Under the pieces are notes generated by a model that saw nothing but the letters and a program-made list of their open reading frames with translations, made no database searches and was not told the origin of the DNA. 64,000 nucleotides of DNA from Pseudomonadota bacterium (GTDB lineage Bacteria; Desulfobacterota; Syntrophorhabdia; Syntrophorhabdales; Syntrophorhabdaceae), in assembly GCA_026388255.1 (NCBI GenBank), contig JAPLKC010000035.1, positions 1-64,000 on the forward strand. Reading direction: 5' to 3'. Numbering within the stretch: the first letter of the stretch is position 1; every line of letters starts with the position of its first letter. The translations under genes and the position numbers were made by a program. This document shows, piece by piece, positions 18,643 through 31,018 of the stretch.

Positions 18643-20607
18643 ATGGGATTAGGTTATACAATCTTCTATTGTTTTATTTTGTTAGTCATCGGTTTATTTC
18701 CGTTTAATTTCCGACAATCCAACAATGCGTTGTTGAATCAGATTGACGGACTTATGCTTGCCCCGCCGAGTACGGTTTATACACTGGCTCCACCTGAAAA
18801 GTTGGTCAATATAAATGAACTTTCAGTTTTAGTAGAGTTGAAAACAGATTTTACCCAGGAAAGCGGGTATGCAAGAATTATCAGTTACTCGCTGGATCCT
18901 GAAAATATGAATTTTAGGGTGGCTCAATGGGAAGATCGTTTAATTTTTGAATTGAAAACTGCTGATGCTCCCAGGGGACTCCATTTTGAAGTTCTTAACA
19001 TCTTCAACAATAATGCAAGAAAGTGGATTCTAATAAGTTGCAAGGGCAATAAAATAGCTTTTTATAAAGATGGTGAATTAAGAAAAACGATTGAAACCGG
19101 ACAAATAGATTTTGCAAATTGGGATAAAACCTATCCACTTTCTGTTGGAAGCGAAAGCAATGGGAAATTTTGCTGGGGTGGAAGTATTAACCGGATTGCC
19201 ATTTATGCACGCTCATTTATGCCTGAAGAAGTAATGGATTTATATTTGCACCCCTTGGAAGTACGTCCTTTAATTTATTATTCTTTTACCGGAAACCAAA
19301 ATCGTTTGATTGCCGACCAGGGAATAGGGAAACCTTCTAATTTGTCAGTTCCGGAACATTTCACGCCATACAAAAGAAGCACCCTGGAGAAATTCTATAA
19401 GCCCTATGGCACGACATGGCGCAGCTATAAATATCATTTGCTCGACATATTGGTTAATATCATCGGGTTTATTCCTCTGGGATTTTTATTGGCATCATAT
19501 ATTGTACGAAAAAAATTACCGTTGATTCTATCAATATTGCTGCCGACTCTGGGAGGTTTTATTGTTAGTTTTACAATCGAGATATTACAAACATACCTGC
19601 CGGGACGTTCTTCCAGCTTGAATGATCTTATATGCAACACTATCGGGGTATTGTCCGGTTCCTTTGCTTTTTGCATCCTTCATTTGACATTCAAGGAAGA
19701 TGAAAAAACAGTCCTGGCCAGGGGCGTAAAACATATGGCCAAAAAACTGGAATATCACAGGTATATAGGACTCATTATCTTTACCCTTGCGACATTGTGG
19801 ATGTTTTATGAACCGTTGAGAGAGCTTTTACGTTTCTACTGGGACAGCGAATATTATTCCCATATTATCATCATTCCCCTTATAAGCGGATTTTTTCTTT
19901 ACAAGAGCAGAAATGAATTATTTGGTGCACCTCGGTATTCTTTTTTTGTTGGGAGTATTGTAATAGCTTTCAGTATTTCTATCTATATTTTGGGGCAAAC
20001 GGTTTTTGTTTATCTTAACCAGAATGATTATGCAGCACTGGTAACTTTTTCCGGTATTGTTCTCTGGATTGGCGCTTTCATATTTTTTTATGGTACACAT
20101 TCTTTCAGGAAGGCATTTTTTCCGTTTTTCTTTCTCCTCTTTATGGTACCGATCCCGAGCGTAATTATGGATAAGATTCTTTATGTTTTGCAAACTACTT
20201 CAAGTTGGGTAACCTGTATTCTTTTTAAAATTGCCCAGATTCCGTTCACCAAAGATGGATTTATTTTTGTTTTGCCCAATAATTTATATATACGAATAGC
20301 GGTTGAGTGCAGCGGAATCCGTTCCTCGATAGCGTTGTTGATAATAAGCGTAATAGTAAATCATATATATTTGAGGAAGAAGTGGAACAAGACCGTGCTC
20401 CTTGCTGCTGTATTTCCAATAACAGTTGTCAAAAATGGTATTAGAATTTTTGTTCTCAGCCTGTTAGGAATATATGTGGACCGGAAGTTTGTTGTTTCAG
20501 GATTTCTGCACGAGGCAGGCGGTATTTTTTTCTATCTTCCCGCCCTTTTACTTTTTTTGTTTGTTCTCGGTTATCTTGTGAAGCGTGAACAAAAAACTGA
20601 AAAATAA
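18643..20607 (+). CDS. LamG-VanZ-exosortase fusion, catalytically complete
   Basis: A 654-residue inner-membrane protein with three parts. After one membrane segment (residues 3-20) a concanavalin/LamG-like domain spans about 40-205 (ESGYARIISYSLDPENMNFR, ENGKFCWGGSIN-type). A VanZ domain spans about 265-350 (DILVNIIGFIPLGFLLASYI, STLND-like SSSLNDLICN). An exosortase domain spans about 373-650. The catalytic triad is intact: Cys556 in VECSGIRSS, Arg601 in KNGIRIF, His623 in GFLHEAGG. Exosortases cleave C-terminal sorting signals such as PEP-CTERM. The PEP-CTERM protein at 32740 is a candidate substrate. The function of the LamG and VanZ parts is unknown; LamG suggests glycan binding. Confidence 0.88.
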   Translation: MGLGYTIFYCFILLVIGLFPFNFRQSNNALLNQIDGLMLAPPSTVYTLAPPEKLVNINELSVLVELKTDFTQESGYARIISYSLDPENMNFRVAQWEDRLIFELKTADAPRGLHFEVLNIFNNNARKWILISCKGNKIAFYKDGELRKTIETGQIDFANWDKTYPLSVGSESNGKFCWGGSINRIAIYARSFMPEEVMDLYLHPLEVRPLIYYSFTGNQNRLIADQGIGKPSNLSVPEHFTPYKRSTLEKFYKPYGTTWRSYKYHLLDILVNIIGFIPLGFLLASYIVRKKLPLILSILLPTLGGFIVSFTIEILQTYLPGRSSSLNDLICNTIGVLSGSFAFCILHLTFKEDEKTVLARGVKHMAKKLEYHRYIGLIIFTLATLWMFYEPLRELLRFYWDSEYYSHIIIIPLISGFFLYKSRNELFGAPRYSFFVGSIVIAFSISIYILGQTVFVYLNQNDYAALVTFSGIVLWIGAFIFFYGTHSFRKAFFPFFFLLFMVPIPSVIMDKILYVLQTTSSWVTCILFKIAQIPFTKDGFIFVLPNNLYIRIAVECSGIRSSIALLIISVIVNHIYLRKKWNKTVLLAAVFPITVVKNGIRIFVLSLLGIYVDRKFVVSGFLHEAGGIFFYLPALLLFLFVLGYLVKREQKTEK

Positions 20608-23252: not shown

Positions 23253-25229
23253 ATGACGTTAATTTGTCTTTATAGTTATATACTTTTGTTGATTTTCACA
23301 GGCTTGTGGCCGTTCACCTTTTTTCCGGAAAACAGGGTGACCGTTGACAGCCTTAAGGGGCTTCACCTTACGCCCCCAGCCACTCTTTACACCGAAGCGC
23401 CACCGGAAAAACTATCTCAACTGCGGGAATTTACCTTTCTTTTACGCCTGTCTTCGAATTTTTCCGGTGAGAGCGGCTACGCAAGAATTTTGAGTTATTC
23501 TATTAATTATTCATCCATGAACTTTATGCTGGCTCAGTGGAAAGATCGCTTAATTTGCAGAATTAAGACGGATAGCAACGAAAACACTATTCATTTTGAG
23601 GTCTTGGAGTTTTTTAAGAAAGGCACTGAAAATCGGCTTGCCGTTGTCTTTAAGAATAATGAATTTAATGTATATCGGGATGGAGAAAGAAAAAAAGCGA
23701 TTAGTTTAGATCCTATGAAGGTTTTTAAATGGAACCATTCATACCCCCTTGTCCTTGGATCAGATGCCGACGGAAAATTTTGTTGGGGGGGCAATATTTA
23801 TTCATTAAGCATATATGATCGAGCACTTTCCGCTGCAGAGGTTCTGGAACCTCCGGTAAAGCAGCCTGAGAAACTTCCGTTAATCCATTATTCTTTTCGA
23901 GAAATCAAGAACTCGAAGATTTTGGACGAGGGAAAGGGCCCCCCGGCTAACCTGACTGTACCTCGCTATTATATTCCATATAAAAGACCTTTCTTTAATA
24001 TTTTCCCGACCGACAGGGTCAATTTGAGATACAATTTATTGGATATAGTTATCAATATTTTGAGTTTTATGCCAATCGGTCTTTTGATTTCTATTTATCT
24101 TTATTCTAAAAAAATGGCCTTTAAAATTCATCTTTTAGTCTCATTTTTAGTTGGTCTAAGCGTCAGTCTTCTGATTGAGTTTTTCCAGGCATTTATTCCT
24201 GTCAGGGATTCAACAATGAATGATGTTTTTGGGAATGTTGTAGGGGCATCTTTTGGAGCGATAATCTATTTCTTTTTACATGTCCGGAGGATTTTTCAGC
24301 AAGGCATTATTAAAGAGAGGACAGGAACCAGAAATTGGCAGGCATCTGGCATAAGTCAAAAATCAATGCATTTCATAGCAAGTATAGACAACAGGCACAT
24401 CCTGTTTCTTACGTTGCTTCTAATTTCAATTACCATTATCTACACACCCTACAGAACATTGTTGGGAACCTATATGACGATAGACTCTTATATACATATA
24501 ATTTTTGTTCCCATAGTATGTGGGTATTTGTTTTACGAGAAAAAGGAAGCAATTTTTCGCCAATTTTCCTACGATGTGAAGATAGGTGTTCCTATAGCTA
24601 CTGCAGGAATAGGTATTTTACTAATAGGGAACAAATATGGTAGACACCTCAACATAAACGATTACACGTCAATTATAATGTTATCGGATGCTGTTTTCTG
24701 GTCAGGTTCATGTATTATTCTTTATGGATTAAAAGCTTTTCGGGCAGCGTTAATACCCCTTCTTTTTCTTGTTTTTTTGATTCCAATTCCAACTCTGGTG
24801 CAAAACAAAGTGGCAACGATAATACAGTCAATCCTCAGCAATATCACGAGTCTGGTTTTTAAGGCCATTAACTTACCGTTTATCAACAATGGATCGGTTT
24901 TCTACCTCCAGGATAACCTCAATTTGGATATCGCGTATTGTGCCAGCCGAATCCCGTTGATTTTCGCGCTGTTTATCCTGGCCTTTTTGGTAAGCCATAT
25001 TTTTCTGGCAACAGGTTGGAAAAAACTTGTTCTAACCTTTTCCATCCTCCCCGTTGTTCTGTTGAGTAATTGTGTCAATATCCTTGTGCTGGCGTTGCTT
25101 GGGGTGTATATGGATGATAGGATTCTATCGCTGGAATTGTCGAGCACATCTATGGGTTTATTCTTTTATATCCCAGTATTGGTTTTGTTCCTTCCAATTC
25201 TCTGGATTTTCAGAATGTCAGACAAGTAA
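23253..25229 (+). CDS. LamG-VanZ-exosortase paralogue lacking the catalytic triad
   Basis: A 658-residue paralogue of the protein at 18643 with the same order: anchor, LamG-like domain (about 36-205), VanZ (about 260-345), exosortase-like region (about 378-650). Gap-free alignment of the C-terminal 90 residues shows the catalytic positions changed. Cys is Ala564 (a Cys sits one residue earlier, IAYCASRIP), Arg is Asn609 (SNCVNIL), and His is Ser631 (LELSSTSMG). The membrane segments are preserved. I infer a non-catalytic exosortase, perhaps a scaffold or a glycan/sorting-signal-binding protein. The frame is intact, so this is not simple decay. Confidence 0.85.
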   Translation: MTLICLYSYILLLIFTGLWPFTFFPENRVTVDSLKGLHLTPPATLYTEAPPEKLSQLREFTFLLRLSSNFSGESGYARILSYSINYSSMNFMLAQWKDRLICRIKTDSNENTIHFEVLEFFKKGTENRLAVVFKNNEFNVYRDGERKKAISLDPMKVFKWNHSYPLVLGSDADGKFCWGGNIYSLSIYDRALSAAEVLEPPVKQPEKLPLIHYSFREIKNSKILDEGKGPPANLTVPRYYIPYKRPFFNIFPTDRVNLRYNLLDIVINILSFMPIGLLISIYLYSKKMAFKIHLLVSFLVGLSVSLLIEFFQAFIPVRDSTMNDVFGNVVGASFGAIIYFFLHVRRIFQQGIIKERTGTRNWQASGISQKSMHFIASIDNRHILFLTLLLISITIIYTPYRTLLGTYMTIDSYIHIIFVPIVCGYLFYEKKEAIFRQFSYDVKIGVPIATAGIGILLIGNKYGRHLNINDYTSIIMLSDAVFWSGSCIILYGLKAFRAALIPLLFLVFLIPIPTLVQNKVATIIQSILSNITSLVFKAINLPFINNGSVFYLQDNLNLDIAYCASRIPLIFALFILAFLVSHIFLATGWKKLVLTFSILPVVLLSNCVNILVLALLGVYMDDRILSLELSSTSMGLFFYIPVLVLFLPILWIFRMSDK

Positions 25230-26720: not shown

Positions 26721-28013
26721 ATGGATTTAATTGATAAAATAAATGGAAAATCTGCCCAGATAGGTGTAATTGGCCTTGGTTATGTGGGGTTGCCCCTTGT
26801 AATTGAATTCTGCTTGGCTGGCTTTAAGGTTACCGGTTTTGACAAGGACCTTGAAAAGGTAGAGCTACTTAAGCAGGGTAAGAGCTATATCAAACATATT
26901 CATATGTCATCTGTCAGGCAGGAACTGTCAGCCAGATTTACCCCTACATCAGATTTTTCACTCCTTGCAAAGGCTGACTGCATTATCATCTGTGTTCCAA
27001 CCCCGCTTAATGAAAACAGGGAACCTGACATGACATATATCTTTAATACTACTGAGACTATTGCAAAAAATCTCCATACAGAACAATTAGTGGTACTTGA
27101 ATCAACAACGTATCCCGGGACTACCGATGAAGATATGAGAAGGATACTCGAGAAGACCGGATTGAAGGCAGGTGAAGATTTTTACCTTGCATTTTCACCG
27201 GAACGCGAGGATCCAAACAACAAAGATTTCAACCTTAAAACAACACCAAAAGTTGTTGGAGGATACACACCTAAATGTCTTGAAATTGCTTTGACACTCT
27301 ACAATTCTATAGTCGTAAAAACCGTACCCGTCTCATCTACAAGGGCTGCCGAAGCAACAAAACTGATTGAAAATACATACAGGGCTGTCAATATTGCCCT
27401 TGTCAACGAACTTAAAATGCTTTTTGACAGAATGGATATAGACATTTGGGAGACGATTGAAGCGGCTAAGACAAAACCATTCGGTTTTCATGCCTTCTAC
27501 CCGGGACCCGGGCTTGGAGGTCACTGTATACCTATAGACCCTTTTTATCTTACGTGGAAAGCAAGAGAATATGGGTTTTCCACCCGTTTTGTGGAACTTG
27601 CCGGTGAAATTAATACAGCCATGCCTGATTTTGTTGTTACTAAAGTGATAAAAGCGCTTAACGATGCCGGAAAACCCGTTAAAGGAACGAAAATTTTACT
27701 TTTAGGGCTTGCATATAAAGCCAATGTTGATGATGACAGAGAATCTCCTTCTTACCACCTGATGGAAAAGCTTGAAGAAATGGGTGCCGCTGTAAGTTAT
27801 AACGACCCCTACATACCGGTTATTAAACCCATACGCAAGTATCCGGAGTTCGCCGGCAGGCACTCTGTTGAAATTACCGGTAATTATGATTTGATGCTCA
27901 TTGCTACCCCTCACGATATGTACAAAAACATAGACTTTTTTTCCTTCAACATCCCCATAGTTGATACGAGAAATATCGTGCATGGGGAAAATAGATTGCT
28001 TTACAAAGCGTAG
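26721..28013 (+). CDS. wbpA: UDP-N-acetylglucosamine 6-dehydrogenase (WbpA-like)
   Basis: A nucleotide-sugar dehydrogenase of 430 residues. ATG 26721 is preferred over upstream codons because AAGGAG lies 6 bases before it and the protein then begins MDLIDKINGKSAQIG. The NAD-binding motif is IGVIGLGYVGLPL. The catalytic segment is PGPGLGGHCIPIDPFYL (Cys nucleophile), and the C-terminal UDP-binding domain has GLAYKANVDDDRESPS. WbpA oxidises UDP-GlcNAc to the uronate, the first step of the pathway whose later enzymes lie at 493-2078. An equivalent role on UDP-ManNAc cannot be excluded. Confidence 0.88.
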   Translation: MDLIDKINGKSAQIGVIGLGYVGLPLVIEFCLAGFKVTGFDKDLEKVELLKQGKSYIKHIHMSSVRQELSARFTPTSDFSLLAKADCIIICVPTPLNENREPDMTYIFNTTETIAKNLHTEQLVVLESTTYPGTTDEDMRRILEKTGLKAGEDFYLAFSPEREDPNNKDFNLKTTPKVVGGYTPKCLEIALTLYNSIVVKTVPVSSTRAAEATKLIENTYRAVNIALVNELKMLFDRMDIDIWETIEAAKTKPFGFHAFYPGPGLGGHCIPIDPFYLTWKAREYGFSTRFVELAGEINTAMPDFVVTKVIKALNDAGKPVKGTKILLLGLAYKANVDDDRESPSYHLMEKLEEMGAAVSYNDPYIPVIKPIRKYPEFAGRHSVEITGNYDLMLIATPHDMYKNIDFFSFNIPIVDTRNIVHGENRLLYKA

Positions 28014-28058
28014 GCGCGTCAGGCTGTAGTAAAAGCAGTTAATATCATTGAGTTACTG

Positions 28059-28087
28059 TTGAAAAGTAACAGTATATGTGTTATGTT
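28059..28087 (+). promoter_or_regulatory. Probable promoter of tRNA-Pro
   Basis: TTGAAA, 17 bases, then TATGTT. The predicted start at about 28094 lies 2 bases before the tRNA 5' end. The -10 box is not consensus, so confidence is moderate. Confidence 0.4.
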
Positions 28088-28095
28088 ATACCGTT

Positions 28096-28174
28096 CGGGG
28101 CGTGGCGCAGCATGGTTTAGCGCGCTTGCCTTGGGAGCAAGAGGTCGCTGGTTCAAATCCAGTCGCCCCGACCA
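28096..28174 (+). tRNA. tRNA-Pro (anticodon UGG)
   Basis: The acceptor arms CGGGGCG and CGCCCCG pair fully, followed by discriminator A and an encoded CCA (28172-28174). The anticodon stem CTTGC/GCAAG encloses the loop CTTGGGA, giving anticodon TGG. The T arm is CTGG-TTCAAAT-CCAG. All four arms fold normally. Confidence 0.97.
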
Positions 28175-28285
28175 GAATTATACCCGCCGTGACTTATCTA
28201 ATTACCGCTGTCCGCAATTAAAAATTGTAATATTTTACACCATTGTCTATTGGTAAGTTTTGACGCTCAAGGTTGTAGACGAACA

Positions 28286-28314
28286 TTGACAGGCTTTTTG
28301 TATTCTGCTAATAT
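28286..28314 (+). promoter_or_regulatory. Strong sigma-70 promoter of the candidate selenopeptide gene
   Basis: A perfect -35 TTGACA at 28286-28291, a 17-base spacer, and -10 TAATAT at 28309-28314. The expected start is near 28321, 48 bases before the TTG start codon. It is one of the best sigma-70 matches in the window and precedes only the short gene. Confidence 0.7.
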
Positions 28315-28368
28315 CATATATTGCAGCATTCCGGAAAACAGTATAGCTGAGGAAGGAGGTGAGAAGAA

Positions 28369-28491
28369 TTGAAGAAGGGTAATGACAAAAAGGTACTTGA
28401 AAAAGAAGCATTATTCTGGAATGGCATCAAAAAAAGCTTAGGGAAGAGCATTACTAAGAGATGCCACAAATGAAAGGGCTGAAAGACGTAA
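28369..28491 (+). CDS. Candidate selenocysteine-containing RiPP precursor peptide
   Basis: A 40-codon frame starting at TTG 28369, 9 bases after a full AGGAGG (28354-28359 region). Codons 2-34 are lysine-rich with one Phe-Trp (EALFWNGIKKSLG). The frame then meets TGA at 28471-28473, TGA at 28480-28482, and TAA at 28489-28491. Decoding both TGAs as selenocysteine gives the tail TKRCHKUKGUKT, an evenly spaced C-x2-U-x2-U. A hairpin with the loop AGGUCU follows at once (see the SECIS entry). The next gene is a radical SAM/SPASM enzyme. Radical SAM maturases with selenocysteine-containing peptide targets are an established class (the selenobiotic type). I do not recognise this sequence as a known member. 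If TGA is only a stop, the product is a 34-residue peptide ending CHK. Confidence 0.65.
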
Positions 28492-28510
28492 AGTTGCAGG
28501 TCTGCAACTT
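28491..28510 (+). promoter_or_regulatory. Bacterial SECIS-like hairpin
   Basis: AAGTTGC and GCAACTT form a 7-bp stem around the loop AGGTCT. The E. coli fdhF SECIS apical part is GGUUGC-AGGUCU-GCACC; loop and closing pairs are the same. In fdhF 11 bases separate UGA from that stem. Here 10 bases separate the second TGA from GTTGC, and 19 separate the first. The bulged U of fdhF is absent. SelB recognises this loop, so recoding of the TGAs is likely. The same sequence read as 9 bp with a 2-base loop is an alternative fold. Confidence 0.65.
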
Positions 28511-28517
28511 AATCCCT

Positions 28518-28562
28518 GACAGGCAGCTAAGGTGTTGAATTGCCTTATCTGCCTGTCTTTTT
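28518..28562 (+). terminator. Intrinsic terminator between peptide and maturase genes
   Basis: GACAGGCAG (28518-28526) pairs perfectly with CTGCCTGTC (28549-28557). Inside, TAAGG pairs with CCTTA, and TTTTT follows. It would end most transcripts after the peptide and let a minority read into the radical SAM gene. That is a common way to make more precursor than enzyme. Confidence 0.8.
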
Positions 28563-28571
28563 ATTTTATTT

Positions 28572-29744
28572 ATGAAACTTAATCAAACTACTAAAAACGA
28601 ACCATTATTCGATTTTTTTGTGCAGTGGCATCTCACGGAAAAATGCAATCTCAAGTGCACCCATTGTTATCAGGAAGGAAAAGCGATCAGAGATATGTCG
28701 CTGACGGAGATAAAAACGACAGTGCGGCATATTTCGGATACGATCCAACAGTGGTCGGATACCTATGAGATCCCTTTCTCTGCAAGTTCCAACATAACAG
28801 GTGGTGAGCCCCTTCTGCGGAAAGACCTTCCGAAAATTCTTCAGGAACTTGCCAGATATCATTTCAACATATCTGTTCTCACCAACGGGACATTGATGGA
28901 AAAGGAAACAGCCCGAATGCTTGCAGATTTTTCTGTCAGGGGTGTTCAGGTGAGCCTTGAGGGGCCGGAAATAATCCATGAAAAGATCCGGGGGAAACAT
29001 AGCTTCTCCTCTGCTATTAGGGGTGTTGAATTCCTTCTTGATGCCGGGATTCCTGTAACCCTGAATGTCACGCTCTCTGAGCTAAATGCGGATTTTATTA
29101 CAGATATGGTGTCTTTAGCAACCGATCTTGGAGTCCAGCGCCTCGGCTTTTCTCGACTCGTGCCTTATGGAAGAGGCTTCTCAATGCTAACAAGGATGCT
29201 CACAAAAGAGAGGGTCAGAGAAGTCTATGAGCAGATATTTTCAACCAAGGCCCCAAGTTCTGAACAAGAGCATATCCCGCAAGCCCCCCTTTTTAACCGG
29301 GGTCCAGAGGCGCACAGTGATTTGAATCCATACCTATCCGGGAAGCCCACGGTCCTCAAATGCGAAGAGCTTCAAATTGTAACAGGTGACCCTGTTGCAT
29401 CACAGTTGGGTGTAGAAGCAATCGATGATGATTTTGAAGCCGTTCCTGTTGGTGGCTGTGCCGCAGGGGTATCAGGAGTAACCTTGCTACCCGATGGAAC
29501 GATTTCCCCTTGCAGGCGGTTGGATATTTCTATCGGAAACATATTAAAGGATTCGCTGAGGGAAGTGTGGGCAACTTCGAGCGTCCTGAATGTTCTTAGA
29601 GACAAAAATGCCTATAAGGGAAAATGTAAGACCTGTAAGCGTTGGTCAAACTGCCGGGGATGCAGGGCAATAGCCTATGCCTATGCTCTTTCCCAGGGGA
29701 GGAACGATTTTCTTGACGAAGACCCCCAGTGCTTTATTGAGTGA
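28572..29744 (+). CDS. Radical SAM/SPASM peptide maturase candidate
   Basis: A 390-residue radical SAM enzyme. The cluster motif CNLKCTHCY uses Cys25, Cys29 and Cys32; a GGEPLLRKDLPK segment follows. The C-terminal SPASM region holds CAAGVSGVTLLPDGTISPC and CKTCKRWSNCRGCRAIAYAY, which would bind auxiliary iron-sulfur clusters. SPASM proteins commonly modify Cys-rich peptides. The gene begins 9 bases after the T-run of the terminator behind the selenopeptide. No ribosome-binding site precedes the ATG, and no later in-frame start lies before the cluster motif. Pairing with the peptide is inferred from adjacency. An unrelated anaerobic sulfatase-maturase-like role is the main alternative. Confidence 0.85.
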   Translation: MKLNQTTKNEPLFDFFVQWHLTEKCNLKCTHCYQEGKAIRDMSLTEIKTTVRHISDTIQQWSDTYEIPFSASSNITGGEPLLRKDLPKILQELARYHFNISVLTNGTLMEKETARMLADFSVRGVQVSLEGPEIIHEKIRGKHSFSSAIRGVEFLLDAGIPVTLNVTLSELNADFITDMVSLATDLGVQRLGFSRLVPYGRGFSMLTRMLTKERVREVYEQIFSTKAPSSEQEHIPQAPLFNRGPEAHSDLNPYLSGKPTVLKCEELQIVTGDPVASQLGVEAIDDDFEAVPVGGCAAGVSGVTLLPDGTISPCRRLDISIGNILKDSLREVWATSSVLNVLRDKNAYKGKCKTCKRWSNCRGCRAIAYAYALSQGRNDFLDEDPQCFIE

Positions 29745-29833: not shown

Positions 29834-31018
29834 TTACAAGGAAATCTCTTCTTCCGTCAGATAGCACTGCGGGTCTTCTGCCCACACATCACCTGCAACC
29901 GCCTCTGCCCTGACCCTGAAATTTCCCGCACATATATTGAGCCATCTGCATCTTGTGCATCTGCCTTTTACAAATTGCTTCTTATTCTTCAACTTTGCCA
30001 TAAGCTCGTTTGAGGAATCCATCCAGATTTCGCTGAAGGGCTTTTTTCTCACGTTGCCAAAGGCGTAATGCCTCCAGAACTGGTCTGCATGGACATACCC
30101 TTCCTCATCCACACAGGCAATGCCCTTACCTGATGCATTCCCTTCATTCATCATAAGGAGTTTATACACCTCTTCCGCCCTTTTTCTGTCTTCTTTTAAA
30201 AGCCGTAAATATGTGTAGGGACCGTCAGCATGGTTATCAACAGTAAGCACTTCAATTGGCTTACCCTGGTTAAAAAAGGCTTGAGTACGGTCCATAATAT
30301 AATCAACAACTTTTCTTGACTCAACGTGCGGAAGGTCTTCCGAGATTAACATAGAACCCCTTCCCGCATATACAAGGTGATAGAAGCAGACCCTCTCTAT
30401 GCCCTCTTCCTCGATAAGGTCGAAGACCCTTGGAATCTCTTCGTAATTTCTTTTGTTTATCGTAAACCGCAAGCCCACCTTTATCCCTGCCTTTTTTGCG
30501 TTCCTGATCCCGGTTATTGCCCGCCCAAACGCCCCCTCAACACCCCTGAAGGCATCGTTTTTTTCTGCAATGCCATCGATACTTACTCCTACATAGGAGA
30601 GCGAAAACTCTGAAAAAACCCGTGCTTTTTCCTGTGTGATAAGGGTGCCATTTGTTGAAATAACTGCCCGCATCCCTTTCTTTACCGCGTAATCGATAAG
30701 GCGGGGTAGATCATCCCTCAGCAGGGGTTCGCCGCCCGAAAAAAGGATCACGGGCACACCAAAAGAGGCAAGGTCATCAATCATTTCCATACCCTCTTGC
30801 GTCGAAAGTTCCTTTCCCTTATATTCCTCGCCTTCAGCAAAGGCATAACAGTGCACACATCTCAGATTGCACCGTTTTGTCATATTCCATACAACAACTG
30901 GTTTTTTATCTTGCGAGAACTGCAAGAGATGTGAAGGCAGTTTTGCTGAATCCCTGCCGTACCTGAGAGGGTCTGAGGCCTCAACGGCTCCGCAGTACAA
31001 CTTGGATATACCGATCAT
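29834..31018 (-). CDS. ahbC: 12,18-didecarboxysiroheme deacetylase AhbC
   Basis: A 394-residue radical SAM/SPASM protein. The N-terminus MIGISKLYCGAVEASDPLRY, the SKLPSHLLQFS-like ASAKLPSHLLQFSQDKKPVV region, and WNMTKRCNLRCVHCYA (Cys50, Cys54, Cys57) are hallmarks of AhbC. The C-terminus holds CTRCRWLNICAGNFRVRAEA and EDPQCYLTEEEI. AhbC removes the two acetate side chains of didecarboxysiroheme to give Fe-coproporphyrin III. This is the siroheme route to heme of sulfate reducers and archaea. The last step (AhbD) is encoded at 43286. AhbA/B are not in the window. Confidence 0.9.
   Translation of the reverse strand: MIGISKLYCGAVEASDPLRYGRDSAKLPSHLLQFSQDKKPVVVWNMTKRCNLRCVHCYAFAEGEEYKGKELSTQEGMEMIDDLASFGVPVILFSGGEPLLRDDLPRLIDYAVKKGMRAVISTNGTLITQEKARVFSEFSLSYVGVSIDGIAEKNDAFRGVEGAFGRAITGIRNAKKAGIKVGLRFTINKRNYEEIPRVFDLIEEEGIERVCFYHLVYAGRGSMLISEDLPHVESRKVVDYIMDRTQAFFNQGKPIEVLTVDNHADGPYTYLRLLKEDRKRAEEVYKLLMMNEGNASGKGIACVDEEGYVHADQFWRHYAFGNVRKKPFSEIWMDSSNELMAKLKNKKQFVKGRCTRCRWLNICAGNFRVRAEAVAGDVWAEDPQCYLTEEEISL

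Follow-up and report, generated by a model that had tools for sequence, protein, structure and literature searches.

A candidate double-selenocysteine peptide encoded beside a radical SAM/SPASM enzyme in uncultured anaerobes of several phyla

Introduction

Apart from the pair described here, we know of a single radical SAM/selenopeptide pair, SbtA/SbtM, which is also the only one with tested chemistry. SbtM acts on Cys/Sec peptides with the loss of four hydrogens, giving a thiooxazole in the case of Cys, and in the predicted SbtA precursor the SECIS element is found directly after the TGA (PMC11002830). In bacterial selenoproteins, the distance from the UGA to the SECIS loop ranges from 16 to 37 nt (PMC10778597).

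Here we analyze a short gene with two in-frame TGA codons that precedes a radical SAM/SPASM enzyme gene. Both lie in a 64,000-nucleotide stretch of DNA, hereafter the window.

Results

The peptide gene. The initial annotation had described a 40-codon frame ending in K-R-C-H-K-TGA-K-G-TGA-K-T-TAA, a reading that is borne out by the sequence. The frame (28369 to 28488) encodes the 40 residues LKKGNDKKVLEKEALFWNGIKKSLGKSITKRCHKUKGUKT, with U at both TGAs, and is accompanied by the following elements.

28286 to 28314, plus strand: promoter-like sequence ahead of the peptide gene, TTGACA-17-TAATAT and an extended TG (10 of 12 matches to the consensus in a scan)
28353 to 28362, plus strand: Shine-Dalgarno sequence AAGGAGGTGA (from the sequence; comparable sites precede the aligned start in relatives)
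28369 to 28491, plus strand: predicted double-selenocysteine peptide gene of 40 codons (TTG start, TAA stop at 28489 to 28491; coding signal across relatives)
28471 to 28473, plus strand: first UGA, predicted to encode Sec35, with the SECIS loop 25 nt downstream
28480 to 28482, plus strand: second UGA, predicted to encode Sec38, with the SECIS loop 16 nt downstream

The promoter-like site carries little weight because three such sites occur in the region against 1.8 expected. A pattern consisting of the two UGAs and the hairpin, composed after the site was known, matched once in the window and in none of 100 shuffles.

Ordinary gene calling would overlook a gene this short. In scans with every U replaced by C, NCBIfam gave no match to the window peptide up to E 1, TIGR04081 gave none up to E 10 to five peptides from relatives (one of them scanned with two Lys entered as Arg, MRR for MKK), and the peptide was covered by no model in Pfam or NCBIfam. 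A CxxUxxU mini-protein is not listed in a 119-family selenoprotein inventory (PMC13188914), and literature searches aimed at the motif gave no relevant hits. This is a putative selenoprotein family previously unlisted in these resources.

Conservation and coding signal. The enzyme was searched for in 119 relatives and, as a 20-sequence alignment, in a named genome collection. The peptide was found in 42 distinct loci, each time upstream of this SPASM radical SAM enzyme, from Thermodesulfobacteriota, Nitrospirota, Chloroflexota, and others, with record names that include Nitrospirae, Thermodesulfovibrionia, Geobacter, Syntrophaceae, Syntrophorhabdus, Desulfobulbaceae, and Chloroflexi/Dehalococcoidia. 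The peptides share a KEAxFW helix followed by C-x2-U-[K]-[S/G]-U-K-[S/T/G]-stop. As in a bacterial selenoprotein, the UGAs are retained: the second in 42 of 42 loci and the first in 41, the exception (L055) having TGC (Cys) at that position. The evenly spaced Cys-x2-Sec-x2-Sec tail on a basic peptide, as originally proposed, thus recurs throughout, C-x2-[U/C]-x2-U being invariant in the 42 loci. Persistence of the TGA positions and the hairpin in homologous loci had been named as a check, and both are conserved in nearly all.

The residue between the two UGAs is Ser or Gly in 40 of the 42 loci through different codons (AGY, TCC, GGN), i.e., AGC in 18, AGT in 4, and TCC in 5 for Ser, and GGC in 10, GGT in 2, and GGG in 1 for Gly; the other two loci have Lys (AAG). 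Since the codon varies while the residue is kept, this position behaves as a translated codon would. Lys codons vary almost solely between AAA and AAG. At the position that follows Sec2-Lys, nearly all loci have Ser, Thr, or Gly, encoded by AGN, TCN, ACN, and GGN. Among 24 peptides of equal length, pN/pS was 0.39 in the frame compared to 0.94 and 0.93 in the other two; the six-codon stretch that begins with the first UGA, taken alone in close relatives, is too short and too conserved to tell the frames apart.

The stop codon is TAA in 19 loci, TGA in 13, and TAG in 10. In the 13 loci with TGA (e.g., L002, L007, and L037), this third UGA comes shortly after the second, and because the sequence past it is not conserved as protein we take it as a stop.

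The SECIS hairpin and the selenocysteine machinery. Shortly past the second UGA lies the putative recoding element.

28491 to 28510, plus strand: bacterial SECIS hairpin AAGTTGCA-GGTC-TGCAACTT (covariation, fdhF match, fold)

Its core, GTTGC-AGGTCT-GCAAC, spans 28493 to 28508 and begins 10 nt past the second TGA; the extended stem has 8 bp and a free energy of −9.1 kcal/mol. The fold energy of this small hairpin alone is unexceptional (z −1.2); its support comes from conservation and covariation. In an alignment of 34 of the 42 distinct loci (L036, L041, L048, and L049, where the hairpin is absent or displaced, and four near-copies were left out), the six stem pairs were standard in 98.4% of the cells, and three of the six had changed on both sides (19 cells). 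The covariation score was reached by none of 500 shuffles, and structures slid along the alignment dropped to 15 to 62%. By motif search rather than folding, the hairpin starts 9 to 12 nt past the second UGA in 40 of 44 rows and 17 nt past it in the other 4. Two loci, L036 and L041, have no clear hairpin. L041 has lost the 3′ arm and has no selB above the cut-off in its genome while retaining the peptide frame, possibly a case of recent decay. An Rfam search of positions 28000 to 29000 gave no selenium-related RNA match up to E 5, but as RF00031 matched nowhere, controls included, this result carries no information.

The distances from both UGAs to the apical loop fall within the 16- to 37-nt range cited above. 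A stop at codon 41 is only 7 nt from the loop, outside that range; this short distance would account for the lack of recoding there. The likeness to the E. coli fdhF SECIS that had been noted at the outset also stands: GTTGCAGGTCTGCA is identical in the window and the spacing is similar. The fdhF spacing of 11 given with it does not, the distance being 12 nt when measured to the same GTTGC; the earlier figure arises from counting one more stem base. The fdhF element used for this comparison, TGACACGGCCCATCGGTTGCAGGTCTGCACC, matches 5,388 of 5,426 E. coli genomes, and the matches listed are annotated fdhF. Unlike fdhF, the window hairpin would serve two UGAs, and it shares bases with the stop codon or follows it.

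The absence of selA, selB, or selC from the genome had been set beforehand as grounds for abandoning the selenocysteine reading, and selD had been named as a further gene to check. All four are present, each above its curated cut-off (selA, 573 bits; selB, 373 bits; tRNA-Sec [selC], 74 bits; selD, 374 bits), and the SelD of this genome (L113, contig C36) is itself a selenoprotein with one in-frame TGA (...RGAGUASK...). Four genomes that carry the peptide (those of L039, L041, L053, and L062) had no selB above the cut-off. Many of the genomes surveyed are metagenome-assembled, and incompleteness or decay may account for these cases. Overall, the sequence evidence argues strongly that both UGAs are decoded as selenocysteine.

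The radical SAM/SPASM enzyme. The second gene of the pair follows the peptide gene on the same strand.

28572 to 29744, plus strand: radical SAM/SPASM enzyme, putative partner of the peptide (Pfam Radical_SAM and SPASM, family alignment, tree)

Its product scores above the Pfam cut-offs for PF04055 and PF13186, which places it among the SPASM radical SAM proteins, and its ATG at 28572 has no obvious Shine-Dalgarno sequence. Ten cysteines (C25, C29, C32, C296, C314, C352, C355, C361, C364, and C387) are invariant in 20 sequences and would fit a radical SAM cluster plus auxiliary SPASM clusters. The NCBIfam scores are all far below the cut-offs (AhbD, 162 against 500 bits; NirJ2, 156 against 500; ACGX, 152 against 400; SbtM, 124 against 350), and the family enzymes form one clade with an SH-aLRT of 98 to 99. 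SkfB and PqqE are the closest solved sequences; the best Foldseek matches are 6c8v (PqqE) and 6efn (SkfB), followed by SuiB, so that the nearest solved folds or sequences include the peptide-modifying enzymes PqqE, SkfB, SuiB, and anSME. Residues about 230 to 266 of the window enzyme form an insert of some 36 residues that is absent from aligned relatives.

In five loci (L007, L008, L009, L018, and L048), the peptide and the enzyme share a frame and are separated by TGA codons alone, so that reading through all of them would produce a fusion protein. For the in-frame peptide-linker-enzyme of L048, with TGA read as Cys, AlphaFold gave a model with a pTM of 0.82, a confident peptide helix at residues 7 to 26, and a disordered Cys/Sec tail (pLDDT below 50).

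Linkage of the two genes. The pairing was recovered from the opposite direction with the enzyme-blind DNA pattern (UGA-UGA-hairpin), which gave 25 matches in 395 genomes of the same phylum. Eight of them encode the peptide, all eight beside an enzyme with the CxxxCxxCYQ motif, and the other 17 have neither. Three of the eight genomes (G155, G183, and G281) were new with respect to the first enzyme search, the G155 peptide being the same as that of L062. A comparable scan across 400 genomes of Chloroflexota recovered the query genome and one new peptide/enzyme pair. For three enzymes with no adjacent peptide (L035, L044, and L047), the peptide gene lies elsewhere in the genome (L140, L142, and L141, respectively). 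No peptide was found in the enzyme-bearing genomes of L010, L019/L051, and L052, the first of which has no selB above the cut-off. Three weak pattern matches for an all-Cys or mixed peptide in the genomes of L010, L019, and L052, all without the helix, were judged to be due to chance.

In the initial annotation, the peptide was the substrate of the enzyme encoded from 28572. The pairing part of this claim is strongly supported by adjacency, pattern-first recovery, and unlinked co-occurrence; the modification itself we infer. Taken together, linkage and conservation indicate a gene pair under selection.

No third gene recurs in more than 5 of 49 loci when open reading frames of at least 90 residues within about 4 kb are clustered (less where a contig ends, and 1.5 kb in loci from the genome search), and no conserved protease, exporter, or second enzyme was found near the family loci. 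A protease or exporter is usual, if not universal, in RiPP clusters. Of the features of such a cluster, linkage and co-occurrence thus provide a precursor gene with a dedicated enzyme, its role as maturase being the probable one, and a protease or exporter is missing. The system does not look like a secreted RiPP.

In the window itself, the gene for AhbC (12,18-didecarboxysiroheme deacetylase; 690 bits, cut-off 650) lies at 29834 to 31018 on the minus strand, convergent with the enzyme gene. At lower coordinates are two similar open reading frames of about 655 residues (18643 to 20607 and 23253 to 25229), each with an exosortase-like C-terminal domain after other N-terminal sequence, and between them a DltB-like MBOAT protein; of the two frames, only the first exceeds the TIGR02602 cut-off.

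The intergenic region. The space between the two genes is taken up by a second, larger hairpin.

28518 to 28571, plus strand: long terminator-like hairpin (28518 to 28557) with a T-rich tail, between the peptide and enzyme genes (fold)

It folds with −25.1 kcal/mol (z −6.3; 0 of 200 shuffles) and was not listed by a consensus scan. Similar long hairpins are visible in some relatives. In the Chloroflexota loci, the enzyme begins about 50 to 80 nt past the peptide tail, which leaves too little room for such a hairpin. In the window, it would favor synthesis of the peptide over that of the enzyme.

Discussion

We consider it likely that the locus is a two-gene system consisting of a double-selenocysteine peptide and a SPASM radical SAM enzyme that modifies its Cys/Sec tail. 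The product of the first gene would be basic and about 40 residues long, helical in its N-terminal part (KEAxFWxxxKK) and ending in a Cys-x2-Sec-x2-Sec-Lys tail; SelB would read both UGAs as selenocysteine by means of the single SECIS hairpin just past the stop. The enzyme would then most likely bind the helix as a leader and act on the tail, a step that we regard as probable in its own right. Candidate modifications are a carbon-selenium or carbon-sulfur bond or an oxidized Se/S heterocycle. As no protease or exporter is conserved nearby, the product probably acts in the cell, perhaps as a redox-active or metal-binding selenopeptide.

A further reading, which we put forward tentatively and hold to be somewhat less likely to be right than wrong, is that of a new class of intracellular modified selenopeptide, in which the enzyme would join or oxidize the Sec residues of CxxSecxxSec into a selenium structure new to biology, possibly a selenoether crosslink or a metal-binding Se/S site. 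Its mini-gene would rely on one SECIS for the recoding of two UGAs, with a third left as it is.

Among the alternatives, the one that survives best, unlikely as we find it, makes the peptide a small redox- or metal-carrying partner (an electron donor, or a carrier of a cluster or of selenium) of an enzyme that acts on another substrate. The CxxUxxU motif might bind a metal or undergo redox cycling, some genomes encode the peptide apart from the enzyme, and the conserved neighborhood of two genes with no protease or exporter would suit such a partner; against this, the nearest solved relatives of the enzyme include peptide-modifying SPASM enzymes, and a helix with a short Cys-rich tail resembles the leader and core of a maturase substrate.

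Far less probable is a regulatory leader with no functional product, its UGAs sensing the supply of selenium or Sec-tRNA and governing terminator read-through into the enzyme gene. The terminator-like hairpin in the window, and those visible in some relatives, are what such a leader would have, but amino acid conservation extends well ahead of the UGAs (KEAxFW), with the low in-frame pN/pS, Cys replaces Sec-1 in L055, the Chloroflexota gap is short, and three genomes encode the peptide away from the enzyme. The least credible reading, that translation terminates at the first UGA, as is normal for this codon, to give ...KRCHK, and that the downstream conservation reflects an RNA element only, is rejected on coding evidence, as is the regulatory leader: Ser between the UGAs is kept through AGY and TCC codons and Ser/Thr/Gly after Sec2-Lys through four codon groups, one locus has a Cys codon in place of the first UGA, and a full Sec machinery goes with a covarying SECIS.

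With a peptide gene and maturase of the preferred, two-gene kind, two questions become directly testable: how a single bacterial SECIS could act on a pair of UGAs spaced nine nucleotides apart and still leave a nearby UGA as a stop, and how radical SAM enzymes act on selenocysteine.

With PqqE, SkfB, and other peptide-modifying SPASM enzymes, the window enzyme shares the fold, the CxxxCxxC motif, and seven further invariant cysteines in the SPASM region, but it has only 22 to 23% identity to them in structural alignment and scores below all of their NCBIfam cut-offs. Moreover, the substrates of PqqE, SkfB, and similar SPASM enzymes contain, to our knowledge, no Sec. The heme-pathway radical SAM/SPASM enzymes AhbD, AhbC, and NirJ offer another likeness, as AhbD gives the best NCBIfam score of the window enzyme and the AhbC gene adjoins it; AhbC, however, is not among the genes that recur beside family members, and an identity as AhbD heme b synthase was rejected on the score against TIGR04545 (162 bits, cut-off 500).

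Closest in kind is SbtA/SbtM (TIGR04081 "selenobacteriocin"/TIGR04082; thio[seleno]oxazole), likewise a radical SAM/SPASM enzyme with a short selenocysteine peptide. Unlike SbtM, the window enzyme reaches just 124 bits against the TIGR04082 cut-off of 350 (family members, up to about 167) and has no counterpart of the N-terminal part of about 190 residues; unlike SbtA, the window peptide has neither a hydrophobic leader-like start nor SGUG, and carries a single CxxUxxU tail. Of 32 family genomes, 4 also carry a true SbtM gene at another site, and in three of these four loci there are SbtA-like peptides that have a hydrophobic leader-like start and repeated SGUG/SSUG motifs. SbtM is not sister to the window-enzyme clade in the tree. 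SbtM/SbtA is a separate system in the same cells. Judged by its sequences, the pair described here would work like an SbtA/SbtM-type pair yet falls outside SbtA/SbtM itself, and it would be the second radical SAM/selenopeptide pair, present in uncultured anaerobes of several phyla.
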